Below, in pieces: positions 5,254 to 43,954 of a DNA stretch of 64,000 nucleotides (the first letter of the stretch is position 1; the number at the start of each line of letters is the position of its first letter). The notes below the pieces were generated by a model. That model was not told the DNA's origin, ran no database searches, and saw only the letters and a list, made by a program, of their open reading frames with translations. The stretch spans positions 1-64,000 of the IMG/VR virus record IMGVR_UViG_3300020207_000018; one strand, written 5' to 3'. This DNA comes from a virus. The translations under genes and the position numbers were made by a program.

Positions 5254-5460
5254 TTACTTATCTAACAAGGGGTTTTTATCTTTTGCTTTACCAATTGCTA
5301 GGGCAAGTACTTCTAACCATTTGTAGACTTTTGCCCATAATTTGTCATCTGCTGGTGTTGGTGTCATAGCGACAATAACACTACAAATTGAGATAACAAC
5401 TGGAACTATCATAAGTAGATTCCAGATTCCCATTATAAAATCAATTATGCCTGAAAACAT
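5254..5460 (-). CDS. Small membrane protein, possible holin-like (68 aa)
   Basis: A good Shine-Dalgarno sequence (GGAGG) precedes the ATG. The product has one long or two short hydrophobic segments (IMGIWNLLMIVPVVISICSVIVAM), then a TPTPADDKLWAKVYKWLEVL amphipathic part and a Lys-rich end. Similar small proteins with an A-D-D-x-x-W-x-K-x-Y-K motif occur in T4-like marine phages as I remember them. Holin function is only a guess from size and topology; no endolysin is visible in the window. Confidence 0.6.
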   Translation of the reverse strand: MFSGIIDFIMGIWNLLMIVPVVISICSVIVAMTPTPADDKLWAKVYKWLEVLALAIGKAKDKNPLLDK

Positions 5461-5485
5461 ATTGACCTCCTATTTTTTATGGTAT

Positions 5486-5893
5486 TTAGTTGTTTATATT
5501 ACCAATTGAATACTTAGTTGTAAGTTTCCAATCTGATTTTTCTTTATATGATACTACCTTTATTTGAGATAAAGGCGACTTAGGTTCTGATATTTTAGAT
5601 GGATCATTAACCTTCAATAAGTTCCATTGTTGTAAAAGATCAATGATTGTGTTTCTTCTACCAATGTCTGACTCATCAATATTGGTTTGTTTACCGTCTA
5701 GTAAAAATAGTTCTTTAAAGTGTACGATATAATACTTGCCTTTTTTATGAAGAATGTGACATGATTGAAATAACTCTTTGTCTTTCCTCGAAGCTACGCC
5801 TATACGTGATAAGGTTTCTCTTATCTTTAAAAAATCGTCTTTTTCGGGGAATGTTATTTCGATTAAGTCTTTTACTATATCGTGTTCATCCAT
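5486..5893 (-). CDS. regA: RegA translational repressor of early genes
   Basis: RegA binds early mRNAs near their start codons and blocks translation. The product is about 135 aa (T4: 122). The family match is extensive: IEITFPEKDDFLKIRETL, KDKELFQSCHILHKKGKYYI, VHFKELFLLDGKQ and the ending WKLTTKYSIGN. I choose the ATG at 5893; a GTG four codons upstream is also open. The gene overlaps the end of gene 62 by eight bases, the T4 order (44-62-regA). Confidence 0.95.
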   Translation of the reverse strand: MDEHDIVKDLIEITFPEKDDFLKIRETLSRIGVASRKDKELFQSCHILHKKGKYYIVHFKELFLLDGKQTNIDESDIGRRNTIIDLLQQWNLLKVNDPSKISEPKSPLSQIKVVSYKEKSDWKLTTKYSIGNINN

Positions 5894-6278
5894 TATTCTT
5901 ACCACCAGTTTTCATACTCTCTTTCAAGTCACGGTATTGTTTATCGTCTAATAACTCTAAATACTCTTTCGCTATTTTAGTTGATACACCATAAGATTCT
6001 CTTACAGTGTCTATTTTTTTAGATTCATATGGCTTCTGCCACTTGCTGAACCTTTTTCTTTTTCTAAGAGTATTTATTAAAAAAGAGTATTGAAGACGAC
6101 TGTCCAGACTGTGCCGGACATTCATTTCGTTGACGAAAAAGAGCGAATCTTGGTGATAAGATAATGCTCGATTTACTAGGAATGGTTGATAAGACTTCTC
6201 TTCTACCTCATCAACCATGATATCGACTTTGTCAAAACTGACATTTTTAACATAGTCGAATGGATTTCTTTTGGACAT
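5886..6278 (-). CDS. 62: Clamp-loader small subunit gp62
   Basis: gp62 pairs with the gp44 ATPase to load the gp45 clamp at primer ends. The product is 130 aa, shorter than T4 gp62 (187) but typical for the marine T4-like group, which carries the N-P-F-D-Y-V-K start and the PFLVNRALSYHQD and RKRKRFSKWQ motifs seen here. The gene lies between 44 and regA, as expected, and its ATG overlaps the upstream stop codon. Confidence 0.88.
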   Translation of the reverse strand: MSKRNPFDYVKNVSFDKVDIMVDEVEEKSYQPFLVNRALSYHQDSLFFVNEMNVRHSLDSRLQYSFLINTLRKRKRFSKWQKPYESKKIDTVRESYGVSTKIAKEYLELLDDKQYRDLKESMKTGGKNNG

Positions 6279-6577
6279 TAAGCAAGTGCTTGTTGTGTGA
6301 CAGAAGGCAATACTTTTCTTTGATATTCATTAATCAGTTCATCGCCTTTAAGTTCTTTACCAAAGTATACGATAGAACCATCATCAAGTGTTCTTTCAAT
6401 AAGTCCACTATTGAAACTTCTATCAACGACACCTTTACCATCTTGAGTATCTTGTGGTCTAGTGTCGTACCACATACTACTCAAACTATGAGCATGAATG
6501 CCTGAAACACCTTTTGCCCATTCTTCTGCTTCTAAGAGAACTCTTTGTCTCTCTACTTTATTTTTAAACTCCGTCAT
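6278..6577 (-). CDS. Conserved hypothetical protein in the clamp-loader operon (99 aa)
   Basis: The product starts MTEFKNKVERQRVLLEAEEW, continues with SMWYDTRPQDTQDG and ends in a helical QRKVLPSVTQQALA. No family is recognised and there is no signal or membrane segment. The ATG overlaps the previous stop (ATGA) and the stop overlaps the gene 62 ATG, so it is tightly coupled to the replication genes. Confidence 0.7.
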   Translation of the reverse strand: MTEFKNKVERQRVLLEAEEWAKGVSGIHAHSLSSMWYDTRPQDTQDGKGVVDRSFNSGLIERTLDDGSIVYFGKELKGDELINEYQRKVLPSVTQQALA

Positions 6578-36562: not shown

Positions 36563-36570
36563 TATTTATA
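36563..36570 (-). promoter_or_regulatory. Late promoter TATAAATA abutting the 86-aa gene start
   Basis: A perfect octamer ending six bases before the ATG at 36556, the same spacing as at gene 20, with no Shine-Dalgarno sequence between. It overlaps the last codons of the upstream oxygenase gene. Confidence 0.65.
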
Positions 36571-37261
36571 GGATCAAGTTGCCGCTTTCGTCTATATCAT
36601 ACTCAAAATTTGAATCATTCCAACCAATTCGTGAATTTTTATCATCCATGCAATTGACATCTAAATTAAAAGATATACTGTATCGATCTTTGTTTGTTAG
36701 ATTGGGTTCGACCATATGCATTAACCCACTAGGAAAAATGTATAAGTGACCTGTCTTAGGTTGTATCTGATAAGATTCAATCATTCTATTGTTGCCAGGA
36801 AATGCTCCTGCAACTTTATGATTTGTATCTATGAAAGTTAAATCGCCTTCGTCACCATCAGCATGTATATAAAATACACCTGAATAGAAACAACCATTGT
36901 GTAAGTGAGGTCTGTTCCATGCACCATTGTCATTAATGTTAGCCCATGAGTTATGCATATCAACACGGTGTGCATCTTTGTTTAATCCCATGAAAGGTAA
37001 TAACTCGTCTCTGACTAAACGTTTAATTGATCTTATACATTTAATAAAAGTTGGATGTTGATCGCAACCATCATTTGATTGCCAACCTGTATATGCATTT
37101 GATATCTTTCGACCAACAGGATCTTTCTTTCGCATACCATCAATCTCTCTTTTTAAGAGATCAAAGTATTCTGCATTCATCAATGTAGGTTCTTTATCTG
37201 CATCTTTGCCTAAAAAATCTCTATGAAAAACAAATGCAGGAAATAATAATTTTACACTCAT
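36566..37261 (-). CDS. 2OG-Fe(II) dioxygenase-like protein (PF13759-type)
   Basis: The product is 231 aa. SWANINDNGAWNRPHLHNGC with YSGVFYIHADGDEGDLTFID, then LYIFPSGLMHMVEPNLTN and RYSISFNLDVNC give the PF13759 pattern; the two His of H-L-H, the distal His and the Arg are all there. Such proteins are frequent in marine T4-like phages. Its stop and the next gene's start overlap (37258-37261 area), linking it to the DUF6065 and oxygenase genes. The substrate is unknown. Confidence 0.87.
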   Translation of the reverse strand: MSVKLLFPAFVFHRDFLGKDADKEPTLMNAEYFDLLKREIDGMRKKDPVGRKISNAYTGWQSNDGCDQHPTFIKCIRSIKRLVRDELLPFMGLNKDAHRVDMHNSWANINDNGAWNRPHLHNGCFYSGVFYIHADGDEGDLTFIDTNHKVAGAFPGNNRMIESYQIQPKTGHLYIFPSGLMHMVEPNLTNKDRYSISFNLDVNCMDDKNSRIGWNDSNFEYDIDESGNLIL

Positions 37262-38106
37262 TCTTCTACCTCATTATGAAAAGGACATTCAGGTGGTGGT
37301 TCATCTTCTTTGAAGTATTTACCTTTTTCTTGCCAATAACCTTCGTTTCTATATGGCCCAAGTTTAGTTCCCCTTAGTCTTGATTCATCGGAGTATTCTC
37401 TTCTACCTTGTTCATCCATAGACATCATTTCTGCATGTGAAGTTACTGAACTTCTGTTGTCCTGAAATTCTCTAGGACTACGTAATGTATACGTAGAATT
37501 CCATTCTTCTCTTTTAAAAGGAATAACCTGACACAATGGTGTGCCTTTTTTTATAGTAAATGAATGATTAACTCTAGGATAAAAAATTATTTGTGAATTA
37601 TCTTGGCTCACATTGAACTTATCTGTATCGATAATTCCTTGCCATGTAGCAAAGTATCTATTTTGAAATAAGAAAGGGTCTAAGTAAAGACATGAATAAC
37701 CCTCTGGTGTTATAATGTTCCATGGGTTTCTCATTTTAAATGCATCTTTGACAGGACCATCATCGCCAAAATAATCGAAAGCATTTTCAAATTGTTCTTT
37801 GGGGTGTGTAGGTGAAGCGTAATGTTCTCCTGAAGGATCGAAAGTTCTAACGTCTGTTGTACTTACACCGTCTTTTGCATTGTTACCTACGATAACTTCC
37901 ATGTCTCTGTTTGCAAGTAGGTACCAACCACTCTTTAACCAATCATCCATAGCAGGACATGCTCTGATAGTTTGAGTATTAACACCACGTACTACTGCAT
38001 TTACTTTAATTCTTTTCCACCAATCTGGATGCCATTTCTTTGCAAGAACTGGTTTAAAGTCTCTGAGAGTCTTCTCGTTATATGTAATAAAGTCTATCGT
38101 TGGCAT
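37258..38106 (-). CDS. DUF6065-like protein (282 aa)
   Basis: The pattern C-P-A-M-x-D-W-L-K-S-G-W-Y-L-L-A-N-R-D, NPWNIITPEGYSCLYLDP, FATWQGIIDTD, FYPRVNHSFTIKKGTPL and CQVIPFKREEW is that of the DUF6065 family, a group of unknown function whose members sit near sugar or oxygenase genes. The C-terminus has ECPFHNEVE. No export signal. It overlaps oxygenase genes at both ends, which suggests one functional unit. Confidence 0.78.
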   Translation of the reverse strand: MPTIDFITYNEKTLRDFKPVLAKKWHPDWWKRIKVNAVVRGVNTQTIRACPAMDDWLKSGWYLLANRDMEVIVGNNAKDGVSTTDVRTFDPSGEHYASPTHPKEQFENAFDYFGDDGPVKDAFKMRNPWNIITPEGYSCLYLDPFLFQNRYFATWQGIIDTDKFNVSQDNSQIIFYPRVNHSFTIKKGTPLCQVIPFKREEWNSTYTLRSPREFQDNRSSVTSHAEMMSMDEQGRREYSDESRLRGTKLGPYRNEGYWQEKGKYFKEDEPPPECPFHNEVEE

Positions 38107-38815
38107 TATAAAACTCTTCGCTAACTCCTATCTCTACTTCATCGCCTCTTAAAACAATTGATCTTCTATCCATGTATCTAGCAGTTTCATTTGGTGCATC
38201 TGCACCGTGTGGTATTCTGCCGTCAAACATTACTAATCTATTTGGTACAAACTCCACTTCAGCGATTTGGTGGTTTTTAATATGTTCGTTTCTACCTTCT
38301 AAACCCTGTTGAGGTTCATCATATAATCTTAATGTGCCACCCCATTCGGGATTCCAATATGTATTGTAATAGTATAAGAAAGATAAATTCCATGAATCAT
38401 TAGTATCACAATCTGCATGAGTTGTTCCATGACAACCCATTGTCTGTGAGTTTAAACCCATGTACTGAAATCTTTTCCATTTGAAACCGAAATCTGTACA
38501 TATTCTTCTATTTAGATAGTGAGCAGGATAAGAATCTTTCTTATCAATATCTCCTTCAACATTGTGAAATCCGAAATCTTTATTGTCCCGATCAGCCTTG
38601 AAGAAACTTGCACCCCAAAAACTATGGTGAGGTAATCCTGTTGGGCTTTCGCTACCCACTTGATTTGTTTTAGACCAAATATTACTGCTTGTAAATCTTT
38701 GATTAATCCAATGCCATATAGAAGTCTCTAAGTAATTATCAATTATGTAGACTTTATCTAAAGGTAATGATTGAATATGAAAAGGAGAATCAACCTTTTC
38801 TACAAGCAGGCTCAT
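38078..38815 (-). CDS. 2OG-Fe(II) dioxygenase-like protein
   Basis: The product is 245 aa. The H-x-D pair is in GTTHADCDTND, followed by LSFLYYYNTYWNPEWGGTLR, the distal His in GRIPHGADAPNE and the Arg in RRSIVLRGDE, as in prolyl-hydroxylase-type oxygenases. The WNPEWGGTLRLYDE strand is the clearest mark. It overlaps the DUF6065 gene by 29 bases. Together with the gene at 36566 this makes two oxygenases in a three-gene unit; the substrate is unknown. Confidence 0.88.
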   Translation of the reverse strand: MSLLVEKVDSPFHIQSLPLDKVYIIDNYLETSIWHWINQRFTSSNIWSKTNQVGSESPTGLPHHSFWGASFFKADRDNKDFGFHNVEGDIDKKDSYPAHYLNRRICTDFGFKWKRFQYMGLNSQTMGCHGTTHADCDTNDSWNLSFLYYYNTYWNPEWGGTLRLYDEPQQGLEGRNEHIKNHQIAEVEFVPNRLVMFDGRIPHGADAPNETARYMDRRSIVLRGDEVEIGVSEEFYNANDRLYYI

Positions 38816-39402: not shown

Positions 39403-41007
39403 TCAAGAGACTTTATTCGCTCTCGCATACGCTCTTTCATATACGTCTAACATATTTATATCACTGGTATCCATGTCTTTTATCCATGGGCCACCACGTG
39501 TCCAGTGAATTGCTAAAGCATGTGGTTTGTCTAAATGTGTTTCATATCCTTCAGTTATAATATGTCTAGGTGGTATTCTACTGATCTTGTCTGTCCATTC
39601 AAATTGATGTAAATACTTTCCTGACTCTGTATTCACTACTTCTGGTGTTAACTTCTTACAGTCTTCGTGTGCATTATTGAATACCATAAGACTAGACCAC
39701 AATTTCTTAGGATAAGAAACATTCTTTTCGCCATCAAATTTAGTATCACTATGATTTTCGAAATCGTATTGTACACAAGCAATAGCATCTTTTGGGTCTA
39801 AGAAATAGAATAGTGGTAGTATAGACTTACTAAACAATATGTCATCATCTAAGAAGATACTGAAACCTTCATAATTTTCTAGGTAAGGTATTAAGAATCT
39901 ACTATATGTAAACTCTGTTGATTGATTAGCATACTCTCTAGTGTATTCAGGTATCTTTGATACATCTAGTATCTTAATATTAGGTTGCCAGTCTTTTATA
40001 AATTCATACATGTCACCTTTACCAAAACCATATTCAATTCCTTTTTGAAGCAACTTAACATTTGTTTCAGCAAGATCACCATGACGACTATCGTAACCCA
40101 CATAGATTGATATAGGTTTGCCTTTTGCCATTTTCATAATGTTTTTATTGAAGTCTGTAACTGTACTTCTAAAACCGATATCAGCAAAAGCACTATGCAT
40201 TTCTATAAAACCCTCTGTATATGTAAATGAAAGATGTGTTGGTTTATCTTTCTTTTCAACAAAGGCTTTCCATAATTCAATTACTTGTTCAGCTGATAGA
40301 ACTTCTGAATCAAATAAATCAAACTTATCCCATACAAACATTTCCATATCTGGATCATCTATCATTTCAAATACTGCTGATCTTACAGAACCTGGATGTA
40401 TTCTAAGAGTGTATCGTTCTTCTTCTGAAGAAGGTTTGTTCACTACACCTTGGATTGGATTCCAAAGGCCTTCATGTTTGATACTATCAATTAACCAGTG
40501 TGCTTTAGCACTGTGATAATAAGTTGAATTATTGATTTCTAATTGTCTTTCAGTTGGGCCTTCTGCACCAAAAACATATTTTGTATAGTCTGTTATCTTT
40601 TGATATTCATCATTTCGGTTTTTGAAATCAAAGCCAGAATGACCAGGTATTGGTGTTTCAGGTTTTTCAGTATAACCGTACTGCAAATAATATTGATAGA
40701 CATATGCTTGATGTTGTAATTGATTAAACGGTTGTAATTTTGTTGTATCAGAATAATCGTATAATCTTTCGTCTATCAATTTAGAAGCTTCTTTCCATTT
40801 AACATGCTTTAGTTTTGGTAATTTATTCTTCATCAACCAATCTAAAGACTTATATGCTTCAGTTTCCTTGTAGTCTTTGGATAGTTCGATACTACCAATA
40901 TGACAATGATCCATGAAAATGACTTCATCGCCACTATCTGGCCCAAATGGTGATCTTCTATTTTGAAATGCTTCTTGTACGGCTTCTAAGGTTTCTAATT
41001 TTCTCAT
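39403..41007 (-). CDS. Two-domain protein with C-terminal GT8-like glycosyltransferase
   Basis: The product is 534 aa. Residues about 300-530 form a glycosyltransferase of the GT8/GT-A kind: ISIYVGYDSRHGDLAETNVK, STEFTYSRFLIPYLENYEGF, the metal-binding FLDDDILF, and HALAIHWTRGGPW near the end. The N-terminal ~290 residues are not a known transferase part; a segment with YHSAKAHWLIDSIKHEGLWN and LRIHPGSVRSAVF resembles a ParB/sulfiredoxin-like fold (weak). It is the only gene between the oxygenase unit and the Pro/Tyr-rich repeat proteins and has its own late-promoter variant. Confidence 0.78.
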   Translation of the reverse strand: MRKLETLEAVQEAFQNRRSPFGPDSGDEVIFMDHCHIGSIELSKDYKETEAYKSLDWLMKNKLPKLKHVKWKEASKLIDERLYDYSDTTKLQPFNQLQHQAYVYQYYLQYGYTEKPETPIPGHSGFDFKNRNDEYQKITDYTKYVFGAEGPTERQLEINNSTYYHSAKAHWLIDSIKHEGLWNPIQGVVNKPSSEEERYTLRIHPGSVRSAVFEMIDDPDMEMFVWDKFDLFDSEVLSAEQVIELWKAFVEKKDKPTHLSFTYTEGFIEMHSAFADIGFRSTVTDFNKNIMKMAKGKPISIYVGYDSRHGDLAETNVKLLQKGIEYGFGKGDMYEFIKDWQPNIKILDVSKIPEYTREYANQSTEFTYSRFLIPYLENYEGFSIFLDDDILFSKSILPLFYFLDPKDAIACVQYDFENHSDTKFDGEKNVSYPKKLWSSLMVFNNAHEDCKKLTPEVVNTESGKYLHQFEWTDKISRIPPRHIITEGYETHLDKPHALAIHWTRGGPWIKDMDTSDINMLDVYERAYARANKVS

Positions 41008-41033: not shown

Positions 41034-41041
41034 TATTTATG
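41034..41041 (-). promoter_or_regulatory. Late promoter variant CATAAATA before the GT8-like gene
   Basis: One mismatch to TATAAATA, 27 bases before the ATG at 41007. The leader is A+T-rich and lacks a clear ribosome site. It overlaps the end of the repeat-protein gene. Confidence 0.5.
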
Positions 41042-42167
41042 ACGTAATTGGAGATGCTGGCCACTGTTGTGACAATACACCGTCCCAACGATTCACTGGT
41101 GTTCTACCTTGTGTAGCGTAAGTACTTGGTGATCTATGTTGATAGGTAAACGGAGTTCTACCTTGTCTAGAATATGTACTTGGTGATCTATGTTGATAGG
41201 TAAACGGAGTTTGACCTTGTCTTGCATATGTCACAGGTTGCCTATGTTGATATGTACTTGGCGATTGTGTTATTCTAGGATCTCTGTAAGTACTTGGTGA
41301 TCTGTGTTGATATGTGCTAGGTACACGATATGCTCTAGGATCTCTGTAAGTACTTGGTGATCTATGGTTATACGTGCTAGGTACTCTATAACTTCTTGGA
41401 TCACGATATGTAGATGGTGATCTGTGTTGATATGTGCTAGGTACACGATATGATCTTGGGTCTTGATATGTAGACGGCGATCTATGTTGATATGTGCTAG
41501 GTACACGATATGATCTAGGATCACGGTATGTAAATGGCGATCTATGGTTATATGTAAACGGTGACCTATGTTGATACGTAAACGGTGATCTATGTTGATA
41601 AGTCGAAGGTTGTCTAGCGCCTCTAATATTAGGTTCTTGTGCTGATACAGGGTGTCTGTAACCTGCTGGTTGTTGTGCTGATCTAATATTAGGTTCTTGT
41701 GCTGATACAGGGTGTCTATAACCTGCTGGTTGTCTAGCATTACCAATTACTGGTTGTTGTGCTGATACAGGTGCTCTATATGCTGCTGGTTGTCTAGCAT
41801 TTCTAATATTAGGTTCTTGTGCTGATCTGATATTAGGTTCTTGACCGCTTCTAATATTAGGTTCTTGTGCTGATCTAATATTAGGTTGTTGACCATTCGC
41901 AATATAAGGCGACTGGAAAGTAAACGGTTGCCTTGCGTTATTAGGTTGTTGAGCATTTGCAATATAAGGCGACTGGAAAGTAAACGGTTGCCTTGCGTTA
42001 TTAGGTTGTCTAGCATTTGCAATATAAGGTGACTGATATGTAAATGGATTCTGGAATGTAAATGGATTCTGGAATGTAAATGGATTCTGGAAAGTAAAAG
42101 GTGTCTGCACAGGAACAGAAGCCTGTGTAATACCTTGAGCATTTGCTGGATAAAAACCTGTTGCCAT
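41037..42167 (-). CDS. Pro/Tyr-rich repeat protein A (376 aa)
   Basis: After a short start (MATGFYPANAQGITQASV) the whole protein is repeats. Three types follow in order: SPYIANAQQPNNARQPFTFQ, QEPNIRSA and QPAGYRHPVSAQ types, then YQHRSPSTYRDPRSYRVPST types. Prolines are mostly 6, 6 and 8 residues apart, giving a 20-residue (60-base) period. There is no globular tip domain; the end is GVLSQQWPASPITS. It starts 12 bases after repeat protein B and is probably a fibre or adhesin component; no family is recognised. Confidence 0.8.
   Translation of the reverse strand: MATGFYPANAQGITQASVPVQTPFTFQNPFTFQNPFTFQNPFTYQSPYIANARQPNNARQPFTFQSPYIANAQQPNNARQPFTFQSPYIANGQQPNIRSAQEPNIRSGQEPNIRSAQEPNIRNARQPAAYRAPVSAQQPVIGNARQPAGYRHPVSAQEPNIRSAQQPAGYRHPVSAQEPNIRGARQPSTYQHRSPFTYQHRSPFTYNHRSPFTYRDPRSYRVPSTYQHRSPSTYQDPRSYRVPSTYQHRSPSTYRDPRSYRVPSTYNHRSPSTYRDPRAYRVPSTYQHRSPSTYRDPRITQSPSTYQHRQPVTYARQGQTPFTYQHRSPSTYSRQGRTPFTYQHRSPSTYATQGRTPVNRWDGVLSQQWPASPITS
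41280..42110 (-). repeat. 60-base tandem repeats in repeat protein A
   Basis: Several blocks repeat with a 60-base period, for example 41281-41520 (Tyr/Arg type), 41641-41760 (QPAGYRHP type) and 41881-42030 (SPYIANAQ type, nearly identical copies). They are coding repeats, not a CRISPR array: there are no spacers. Confidence 0.85.
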
Positions 42168-42178
42168 TTTACTTTAGA

Positions 42179-43954
42179 TTACTTAGGTGATGGTTTAAAG
42201 AAGAAGAAGTTGTGAGCTAATACACCATTTGCAAAGAAATTGTGATTGTCGCCAACGTTCTTCAAGTTATACACCTGTTGTGAATCTTTCTCCTCTATTT
42301 TAATTATTTCTAGTCCTATTTCTGTACCTAGTACAGCATCTGTCATGGTCATCAAATGATCACCGACTGCGATTTCTGAATTTACAAATTCATCTCCACC
42401 TTCTTCTTTGTGGAATTCTTTAAATTTCTCTAAGTTGATAACACCCCATTCACCATTCATTGTTCTAAATGGATGTTCTGAAGTTGTTTCAAGTATTCTA
42501 CCGTCTGATAAATGTATCTCATGTATTGATACTTCTCTTGGTTGCATCAACTCTTCGACTACACCGATCTCTAATTTATTTGTCTCTTCGTTCCAAGTCA
42601 TTACGTCTTGACCAACTTCTACTGTTTCAATTGGTACATGACTGCCATCGCCCAACCATATCATTGTGCCGGCAACAAAACATCCTTTGCCACCTCCAGG
42701 AATGTTACCAGGTATTGGACCAAACGGTTGATAGAAGTACACTGCTGGGAAGATAAATGGATATCTTGCTGTTTGTTGTGTAGTACTTGGTTGCCTTGCG
42801 TTATTTGGTTGCCTTGCGTTGTTTGGTTGCCTTGCGTTATTAGGTTGTCTAGCAGCAACTGGTTGTCTTGCCTGATACGTAAACGGCGCACGGAATGTAA
42901 ATGGAGTCCTTGCGTTATTAGGTTGTCTTGCCTGATACGTAAACGGCGCACGGAATGTAAATGGAGTCCTTGCGTTATTAGGTTGTCTTGCCTGATACGT
43001 AAACGGCGATCTATGGTTATACGTAAACGGTGATCTGTGGTTATATGTAAACGGTGATCTGTGGTTATACGTATACGGTGATCTATGTTGATACGTAAAT
43101 GGCACCCTATATGATCTTGGATCACGGTATGTAAATGGTGATCTGTACGCATACGTAAACGGTATCTGATATGATCTTGGATCACGGTATGTAAATGGTG
43201 ATCTATGTTGATACGTAAATGGCACCCTATATGATCTTGGGTCTCTATATGTAAATGGTGACCTATGTTGATACGTAAACGGTGTTTGTGCGTTTCTGAT
43301 ATTTGGTTCTTGTGCAGACCTAATATTTGGTTCTTGACCGCTTCTAATATTAGGCTCTTGAGCAGCAACTGGATGTTGATAAGATGCTGGTGTTTGTCTA
43401 TTTCTTATAAACGGAGTCTGAGCACTTACAGGGTGATTATACCCAGCTGGTGTTTGTGCGTTTCTGATAAACGGATTCTGTGCATTAACAGGATGTTGAT
43501 AAGAAGCAGGTTGTTGTGCGTTTCTGATAAACGGATTCTGTGCATTTACTGGATGTCTATAGAATGCTGGTGTTTGTCTATTTCTTATAAACGGATTCTG
43601 TGCATTAACAGGATGTCTATATGATACAGAGTTTTGTGCATTCGCAATATAAGGCGATTGAGCATTCGCAATATAAGGATACGGCTGTTGTGCATCTCTT
43701 ATAAATGGATTCTGTCTATTAGCAATATAAGGATACGGCTGTTGTGCATCTCTTATAAATGGATTCTGTCTATTAGCAATATAAGGATATGGCTGTTGTG
43801 TAGGTTGTTGACCTGATGCGTTATTCCACCCACTAGGAGTTTTAATGTAAATTTGATCTACATCTTTCCAAGTGTTTGAAGCAGTTTTAACCCATGCACC
43901 TTGGGTTGAATTCCAACCTGAGGGGGTTTTTACTTTCTGTGAGCCTGTCGCCAT
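42179..43954 (-). CDS. Pro/Tyr-rich repeat protein B with C-terminal Hint domain (591 aa)
   Basis: The N-terminus has two copies of a short motif, KTPSGWNSTQGAW and KTPSGWNNASG. Residues about 55-400 are 18- and 20-residue Pro repeats (QQPYPYIAN, NPFIRNAQ, QPASYQHPVN, SPFTYRDPRSYRVP). After a PFGPIPGNIPGGGKG linker comes a Hint domain (residues 425-582): Cys425 in CFVAGTMIWLGDG, T-x-x-H in ETTSEHPF, and the ending NFFANGVLAHN (His581, Asn582). Only nine residues follow (FFFFKPSPK), and the +1 residue is Phe, so self-cleavage is more likely than splicing. It is probably a virion or surface protein. Confidence 0.85.
   Translation of the reverse strand: MATGSQKVKTPSGWNSTQGAWVKTASNTWKDVDQIYIKTPSGWNNASGQQPTQQPYPYIANRQNPFIRDAQQPYPYIANRQNPFIRDAQQPYPYIANAQSPYIANAQNSVSYRHPVNAQNPFIRNRQTPAFYRHPVNAQNPFIRNAQQPASYQHPVNAQNPFIRNAQTPAGYNHPVSAQTPFIRNRQTPASYQHPVAAQEPNIRSGQEPNIRSAQEPNIRNAQTPFTYQHRSPFTYRDPRSYRVPFTYQHRSPFTYRDPRSYQIPFTYAYRSPFTYRDPRSYRVPFTYQHRSPYTYNHRSPFTYNHRSPFTYNHRSPFTYQARQPNNARTPFTFRAPFTYQARQPNNARTPFTFRAPFTYQARQPVAARQPNNARQPNNARQPNNARQPSTTQQTARYPFIFPAVYFYQPFGPIPGNIPGGGKGCFVAGTMIWLGDGSHVPIETVEVGQDVMTWNEETNKLEIGVVEELMQPREVSIHEIHLSDGRILETTSEHPFRTMNGEWGVINLEKFKEFHKEEGGDEFVNSEIAVGDHLMTMTDAVLGTEIGLEIIKIEEKDSQQVYNLKNVGDNHNFFANGVLAHNFFFFKPSPK
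42776..43800 (-). repeat. Coding tandem repeats in repeat protein B (60- and 54-base units)
   Basis: 42861-43008 holds two and a half perfect copies of a 60-base unit (TPFTFRAPFTYQARQPNNAR). 43081-43260 repeats a 60-base Tyr/Arg unit with few changes. 43681-43794 repeats a 54-base unit (QNPFIRDAQQPYPYIANR). The identical DNA copies suggest recent duplication. Confidence 0.88.

Follow-up and report, generated by a model that had tools for sequence, protein, structure and literature searches.

The 64,000-nucleotide window analyzed here, positions 1 to 64,000 of the 78,374-base IMG/VR virus record IMGVR_UViG_3300020207_000018, encodes on its minus strand (42179..43954) a 591-aa repeat fibre protein with a C-terminal Hint domain, which we call FibA. 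The gene runs from an ATG start to a natural stop, and all of its parts are given below by their minus-strand coordinates. The conserved N-terminus (MATGSQKVKTPSGWN..., aa 1-50, 43805..43954) consists of ~50 residues with three VKT/IKT..W-type units, and 39 columns are invariant over the first 90 aa in a 32-sequence alignment. It is followed by Tyr/Pro/Arg/Gln-rich repeats (~aa 51-400, 42755..43804) in units of ~18-20 aa, which give self-matches at 54- and 60-nt offsets and contain nearly no Lys or Cys. A Phe/Tyr-rich and Gly-rich stretch ending in GGGKG then leads to the Hint domain, its last piece (IPGNIPGGGKG, 42683..42715) placing Gly424 at the -1 position. The Hint domain itself (aa 425-582, 158 residues, 42209..42682) opens with Cys425 (42680..42682), the sole Cys of FibA and the predicted nucleophile of an N-S acyl shift, carries the block B His494 (42473..42475) within T491-S-E-H494-Pro, and ends in His581-Asn582, of which Asn582 (42209..42211) is the predicted cyclising residue. 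Phe583 follows directly and begins a 9-residue tail, FFFFKPSPK (aa 583-591, 42182..42208, with Lys587 and Lys591), after which comes the stop. A preliminary description made from the sequence alone had proposed a Hint domain with this Cys, T-x-x-H block and terminal His-Asn, and with Phe after the Asn, and every one of these residues was located in 42179-43954; the strand, a sister gene at 41037-42167 and the tail Lys were absent from it. The ~18 kDa released fragment it expected agrees with the calculated 17.8 kDa of residues 425-582 (18.9 kDa with the tail), compared to 49.3 kDa for FibA before Cys425 and 68 kDa for the full-length protein.

The identity of the domain was evaluated by profile, alignment, structural model and structure matches. 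On the whole FibA open reading frame (ORF), the Pfam family Intein_splicing (PF14890) reached 33.3 bits (E 5e-8) against a cut-off of 35.8, which it exceeded in the genome search once neighbouring stretches in frame were included; weaker matches to PT-HINT, Hint and other Pfam families all fell just under their cut-offs. PHROG returned one unnamed family at the FibA C-terminus, and the best sequence match in the PDB was 2lwy, a bacterial intein-like (BIL) domain (E 4.5e-6). From a 42-row alignment, AlphaFold modelled the Hint with a mean predicted local distance difference test score (pLDDT) of 90.8 and a predicted template modelling score (pTM) of 0.87, and the top structural match was Tetrahymena BIL2 (6tmm/6y75; Foldseek E 1.4e-11; VIA-align Z 22.4 over 149 residues at 1.8 A), followed in VIA-align by the DnaB and gp41-1 inteins (Z ~20), the Clostridium BIL 2lwy (Z 18.8) and hedgehog (Z 17.0). 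Seven columns are invariant over the 42 aligned Hints, which are 31-51% identical to the FibA Hint of the window: Cys1, Phe2, one Ile, the block B His and Pro, and the terminal His and Asn. Fold and conservation together rule out a chance motif. For the FibA N-terminus, prediction did not yield a confident fold (pLDDT 39.6), and a Pfam Cementoin match to FibA (E 2.7e-5) was given no weight, being under its cut-off and on the low-complexity repeats.

Next, we evaluated how widespread the domain is. Since the collection scans list at most 80 loci and four of them, the repeat scan included, reached that limit, all family counts are lower bounds. The scan with the repeat part identified at least 77 loci with FibA-type repeats; 12 of these were counted as duplicates on the strength of their match rows and still entered the all-locus counts, and L156 and L158 at least are genes for the Hint-free sister protein FibB (see below) rather than FibA. 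At least 59 distinct complete FibA ORFs were sorted into three classes by their C-terminus: 24 carry a Hint, 24 were first assigned a short end (SHORT), and the rest have another domain (OTHER). Cleaning reduced SHORT to 20, with L110, L116 and L117 removed as really OTHER, and L265 removed for having its Hint in a separate ORF (~5275-6510) from the fibre N-terminus and repeats, a split that is probably a frameshift or an assembly error. With incomplete ORFs included, at least 33 distinct fibre-type Hints, defined by a hidden Markov model (HMM) score above 140 bits alone (another criterion gives 35), were found in a set of 252 distinct ORFs with a Hint. Three more came from two later scans, for at least 36 in all, some on ORFs cut by contig ends. 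An identical Hint occurs in at least three other IMG/VR contigs, where the region has 99.85-99.98% DNA identity.

The 33 fibre-type Hints all have Gly at -1, begin with Cys-Phe and end in His-Asn, and the -1 Gly is kept also in the six for which -2 is not Gly. The +1 residue is Phe in 14, Gly in 11, Met in three, Tyr in two, and Leu, Ala and Ile in one each; Cys, Ser or Thr was found in none of the 36, the three later Hints having Gly, Leu and Met. None of the 59 complete FibA ORFs carried a degenerate Hint, HMM scores being either >140 bits or absent; two scan patterns were pieces of conserved Hint blocks (GCF... and ...H) and would miss Hints dead at both places, while the repeat scan is without that bias. 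The median ratio of non-synonymous to synonymous substitution rates (dN/dS) was 0.24 (113 equal-length pairs, dS 0.05-1.5), indicating from sequence comparison that the Hint is under purifying selection. The residues expected for a thioester at Gly424-Cys425, as the preliminary description supposed, sit in a complete, conserved Hint that ends a repeat fibre.

By the sequence and model features tested, the domain is best described as a type A BIL-like Hint. It has the Hint fold and the C-terminal His-Asn, no conserved +1 Cys, Ser or Thr, and no homing endonuclease, Hint-type families being the only Pfam matches to that part of FibA. Its length (158 aa in the window, 152-161 in relatives) is slightly above the 130-155 aa quoted for BIL domains (PMC9185962). 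Type A BILs are described as residing in non-conserved bacterial proteins, within their variable regions (PMC7765530); the FibA C-terminus is variable, with three classes at one locus, but the host protein is a phage's and not bacterial. Other Hint classes fit less well. A type B BIL is excluded by the His-Asn, as type B lacks an intein-type C-terminal motif, a canonical class 1 intein by the missing +1 Cys/Ser/Thr (Phe583 here), and a homing intein by the lack of an endonuclease in the 158-aa domain. A hedgehog Hog member was rejected for want of a sterol region, only nine residues following the Hint (4-29 in relatives), and a polymorphic-toxin PT-HINT for want of a toxin domain after it, with PF07591 weak and under its cut-off (E 1.6e-4). 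An intramolecular chaperone autoprocessing (ICA) domain, as in phage tailspikes, found no Pfam match at a C-terminus where only Hint-type families and the unnamed PHROG family were detected.

The most consistent feature after the Hint is a Lys near the protein end. It is present in the tails of all 33 fibre-type Hints and of the three later ones (GGYGQKN, LQKR and MGMKF, found by alignments stopping at Asn), and lies within the last two residues in 35 of the 36. Specifically, among the 33 tails the Lys is last in 12, next-to-last in 20 and fifth from the end in one (L268). A Lys falls within the last four residues of 32 of 33 tails vs 18% of 287 other, mechanically called ORFs from the same loci (33% for Lys or Arg); tails of all ten clusters at 60% Hint identity have it, for which the chance by this control is ~8e-6. 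Other C-terminal Hints from phages and bacteria have a tail Lys in 61 of 67 cases (42/44 viral, 19/23 genomic) and Lys at +1 in 53 of 69, while among internal Hints Lys at +1 is also frequent (54/197, vs 83/197 with Cys, Ser or Thr). Whatever its role, a conserved tail Lys argues that the tail is kept. The fibre repeats are nearly free of Lys (0.17% vs 9.5% Arg in Hint FibA), 49 of 72 FibB proteins contain none at all, and Arg makes up ~6-10% of the FibA and FibB repeats. This avoidance was dropped as support for Lys chemistry, since it is equal in Hintless FibA (0.19% Lys).

Hintless alleles of the same gene indicate where the Hint sits relative to the fibre. L269 reads ...AVYFYGGGG[Hint]ISTK where the near Hintless L127 reads ...VVYFYGGGGGGGGFFPQQLK, and L283 reads ...PGGGGG[Hint]GEKK where the near Hintless L148 reads ...QPPGGEKE. 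Together with L129, which pairs with L269 as L127 does, these alleles display a feature of class 1 inteins, an in-frame insertion with Hintless alleles at the same site, although the exact insertion boundaries are blurred by the Gly run. Overall, Hintless alleles end in a Gly run and a short peptide, and the encoded ends of L127, L129, L147 and L148 bear a Lys. Judged by the near pairs with and without a Hint, the tail seems to be the natural end of the fibre, and a Hintless allele resembles a processed product. Of 20 Hintless ends examined, 18 have a Gly run, the last one being followed by Phe in 10, and 14 of 33 Hint tails start with Phe, a Gly-then-Phe likeness that is suggestive only.

The history of the locus was examined on a tree from four flanking genes with 68 rows (34 Hint, 21 SHORT and 13 OTHER), in which identical rows were kept, so that row counts are inflated; L127 and L129, which had escaped the FibA N-terminal pattern, were added by hand, and L114 and L116 stayed outside for want of flanking genes. 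Hint presence required at least 6 changes on this tree vs 22.6 in shuffles, none of 500 being as low, and 4 on an earlier tree of 55 rows that lacked the window. In the 68-row tree, the window belongs to a supported 19-row clade in which all rows have a Hint, on a long branch, and long branches make single tree placements unsure. The 13 OTHER rows form one clade, in which FibA is followed by an ORF of ~90-100 aa; alternative C-terminal domains replace the Hint in L102-L105, L109, L110, L112, L116, L117, L119, L122, L123, L133 and L143. These C-terminal parts gave no convincing Pfam or PHROG match in the four tested, and the domain and the small ORF are perhaps a tip plus chaperone.

Given these features, we propose that FibA carries an autoprocessing type A BIL-like Hint placed between the Gly-rich fibre end and the fibre's own last residues, which removes itself and rejoins the tail. 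In a first step, an N-S acyl shift at Gly424-Cys425, helped by His494, would leave a thioester on the Gly end of the fibre; the conserved residues and the modelled fold make it highly probable that the domain is active. Next, cyclisation of Asn582 would free the tail from the Hint, a step we consider probable. Finally, an amine of the tail would resolve the thioester, either its free alpha-amine, as in ordinary splicing by type A BILs, or the conserved Lys, forming an isopeptide; whether a tail amine resolves it or trimming hydrolysis does, we regard as evenly balanced. The mature fibre would then consist of the Gly run and a short Lys-bearing peptide, like the encoded ends of the four Hintless sister alleles. 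Type A BILs with terminal His-Asn and no +1 nucleophile are reported to splice via a thioester, Asn cyclisation and attack by the freed amine (PMC4031507), and in Tetrahymena BIL2 the N-extein is reported to be joined to a Lys side chain as an isopeptide (PMC8616854). On these two precedents we favour self-removal with tail rejoining, to which, taken as a whole chain of steps, we give an even chance or slightly better, and place trimming second. The view of the preliminary description that Phe after Asn makes splicing unlikely is not supported, as type A BILs without a +1 nucleophile can splice (PMC4031507), and by this analogy Phe at +1 does not rule splicing out.

Several observations weigh against this proposal. 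Cleavage dominates over splicing in the type A BILs described in PMC4031507, the tails of the 33 Hints (4-29 residues) have little conserved besides the Lys, and the residues before the C-terminal strand vary (NHN in the window; NTGT, HTHT and others elsewhere), so that coordination of the steps may differ from model inteins. The 287 ORFs used as the Lys control are not proven genes, and the Hint allele L268 has its Lys only fifth from the end. Hintless rows also have a Lys in the last four residues (4/21 SHORT, 6/13 OTHER), and across six independent Hint/Hintless pairs on the backbone tree the Lys comparison gave three that agree, three ties (both with Lys) and no reverse, so that the link between Hint and Lys, strong in the raw counts, loses significance when relatedness is taken into account. 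Read through the ties, the Lys may belong to the end peptide of the fibre and take no part in the chemistry.

The strongest competitor is simple trimming, which we judge possible, though clearly short of probable: water would hydrolyse the Gly thioester, the Hint and tail would be discarded, and the mature fibre would end in the Gly run. This would resemble the C-terminal autocleavage of ICA tailspikes, in which the module leaves after folding. Self-cleaving C-terminal domains are reported as established in phage tailspikes (PMC3742443), the type A BILs studied yield mainly cleavage products (PMC4031507), and several Hintless alleles end 3-5 residues past the last Gly run. However, trimming leaves unexplained both the conservation of the terminal His-Asn (33/33) and the retention of a Lys in a discarded peptide, and a Lys-bearing end is encoded directly by Hintless L127, L129, L147 and L148. 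The FibA Hint and ICA domains are alike as C-terminal modules of phage fibres or spikes for which self-removal is predicted; the chemistry differs, with a Cys thioester and Asn cyclisation predicted in FibA, which has no Pfam match to ICA, and a Ser-Lys dyad reported for ICA domains (PMC3742443).

Within the favoured scheme of tail rejoining, a more specific version is that the tail Lys replaces the missing +1 nucleophile and the fibre Gly thioester passes to its side chain, making these Hints a "lysine-capture" family. We consider this unlikely but worth stating; its product would be a ubiquitin-like isopeptide made on a phage fibre without ATP, within or between chains. The same principle might hold for further C-terminal Hints of phages and bacteria, in which a Lys at +1 or elsewhere in the tail is common, with the caution that Lys at +1 is frequent in internal Hints too.

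A selfish or passenger mini-intein without a role, kept since the fibre would be broken by an inactive one, is unlikely but hard to dismiss. The existence of Hintless alleles at this site, with at least 6 changes on the 68-row tree, is in keeping with it, and the dN/dS would fit an element obliged to remove itself. FibA resembles the class 1 inteins Ssp DnaB, Npu DnaB and gp41-1, with which it shares the fold, the first-step residues, exteins on both sides and Hintless alleles. However, the Hint carries no homing endonuclease, with Hint-type families alone in Pfam there, its label is clustered rather than scattered on the tree, the window falling in the all-Hint clade, and the insertion site is a variable C-terminus. 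In contrast to class 1 inteins, it lacks a +1 Cys/Ser/Thr and sits at a variable fibre end instead of a conserved enzyme site.

Cross-linking in trans, in which an amine on a neighbouring fibre chain, another virion protein or the host surface attacks the Gly thioester and so joins the fibre covalently, appears improbable. BIL2, the nearest fold, is reported to link its ubiquitin-like N-extein with other proteins via Lys (PMC8616854), and the nearly Lys-free repeats would offer few competing amines. Against this, no neighbour gene tracks the Hint within the ~6-kb flanks of the loci, the Lys avoidance is equal in Hintless FibA, and the FibB of the window is without any Lys. The preliminary description had likewise proposed that the thioester could join the fibre covalently to another molecule. 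Covalent joining survives in changed form, the likeliest acceptor visible in the sequence being the fibre's own tail amine or Lys. The hedgehog parallel drawn there was borne out for the fold and the Gly-Cys-Phe start, with which the hedgehog site also begins, and failed for the sterol, since only a short tail follows, with no sterol-binding region; unlike hedgehog Hog (1at0), the FibA Hint also keeps the terminal His-Asn. Finally, an inactive structural remnant, i.e., a folding or capping domain that is never cut, is very hard to reconcile with catalytic Cys, His and His-Asn among seven invariant columns, the opposite of a dead fold.

Compared to the characterized domains, FibA shares with the Clostridium thermocellum BIL 2lwy the Hint fold (1.7 A over 133 residues), Cys1, the block B His and the terminal His-Asn, and with type A BILs in general the missing +1 Cys/Ser/Thr, the missing endonuclease and possibly a variable host protein. 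It differs from them as the C-terminal module of a phage fibre locus, with Gly at -1 in all 33 and a Lys in every tail observed, these being 4-29 residues long. The best structural match, BIL2 of Tetrahymena BUBL1, belongs to a eukaryotic polyubiquitin-like gene and has its acceptor Lys in a folded ubiquitin-like domain, whereas a short tail would hold the Lys in FibA. Tetrahymena BIL2 is also described as having an RGG motif (PMC9200820).

FibA belongs to a marine phage with a T4-like genome, which has genes for major head protein, portal, sheath, terminase, neck proteins and the gp8 baseplate wedge. Comparison of the capsid protein places it nearest, among named phages, to Kyanoviridae with Methylophilales or Pelagibacter as the recorded host: Methylophilales phage Melnitz (66% identical) and the Pelagibacter phages HTVC008M (65%) and Mosig (63%). 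FibA adjoins a 765-aa protein with a match to the PHROG "structural protein", and from its own sequence and its position between tail-fibre-like and neck genes it is presumably a virion tail-fibre-like protein. A regular-expression scan of the fibre-to-capsid stretches of Melnitz, HTVC008M and Mosig detected no such repeat protein or Hint. Against the phage collection, whole-ORF tblastn with FibA (low-complexity filter on) gave no match, and neither did its N-terminal 61 aa up to E 0.1. Thirty named-phage records did have a Hint match, at 25-38% identity and mostly annotated as helicase or terminase.

Next to FibA lies the sister repeat protein without a Hint, FibB (41037..42167, minus strand, 376 aa, no Lys or Cys), which ends in ...RWDGVLSQQWPASPITS and whose C-terminal 60 aa were matched in 57 of the 59 FibA loci. 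Long alternative frames are open over the FibA and FibB repeats (41270-41746 and 42661-43368 within window positions 41037-43804), probably as a by-product of the repeats. Further downstream are a glycosyltransferase family 8-like gene (39403..41007, minus strand; PF01501 E 6.8e-5, just under cut-off; matched in 56/59 loci) and two 2OG-Fe(II) oxygenase genes, at 38078-38815 (55/59) and 36566-37261 (49/59); the former is named "DNA endonuclease V" by PHROG vs an oxygenase by Pfam. These three enzymes might hydroxylate and glycosylate the Pro/Tyr-rich repeats. Across the 59 loci, the flanking genes are kept around all three FibA C-terminal classes, and FibB and most flanks occur with each class.

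Related Hint arrangements were observed on other proteins. In L186, L208, L181, L174 and L209, all viral contigs, single ORFs contain two or three tandem Hints separated by short linkers (...HN, linker, CF...), and those of L186 and L208 end in HN-K-stop. L004, L005, L006 and L008 encode proteins of ~620-645 aa with MKGTFFSADF near the start and one clear Hint ending HNK, just ahead of which a Hint-like sequence can be seen by eye. In L282, L287, L288 and L294, another protein family has a C-terminal Gly-run, Hint, HN and Lys-bearing tail, and phrog_2048 "tail protein" is the match for the N-terminal part of L282 (E 7e-24) and of L294 (E 9e-10). Judged from these sequences, C-terminal Hints seem to recur on phage tail proteins.

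The preliminary description held a phage structural protein with such maturation to be new, and this may stand in part. Hint folds do occur on other phage structural proteins in databases: BFVD contains Hint-fold matches annotated as collagen-repeat and fibronectin-III phage proteins, and two relatives of the PHROG "tail protein" family also carry a Hint. No phage fibre with a BIL domain was named in the titles and abstract starts listed by searches of an open library, outside which lie most subscription papers, the original BIL ones included. As far as searched, a conserved phage fibre locus with a type A BIL-like domain, Hintless alleles and a tail Lys is thus new within the open literature.

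Fibres contribute to the host range of phages, and the sequences examined here suggest that they can be finished by intein-like chemistry, different from that of the self-cleaving ICA modules described in tailspikes. If true, a fibre end finished by a type A BIL would give BILs a clear viral job, and the widespread locus would offer a natural set of Hint and Hintless alleles for comparison. That the tail Lys stands in for the +1 nucleophile is a directly testable statement on C-terminal Hints; were the Lys indeed the acceptor, this would be a compact, genetically encoded, ATP-free ligation of a protein end to an amine, and would be useful in protein chemistry.

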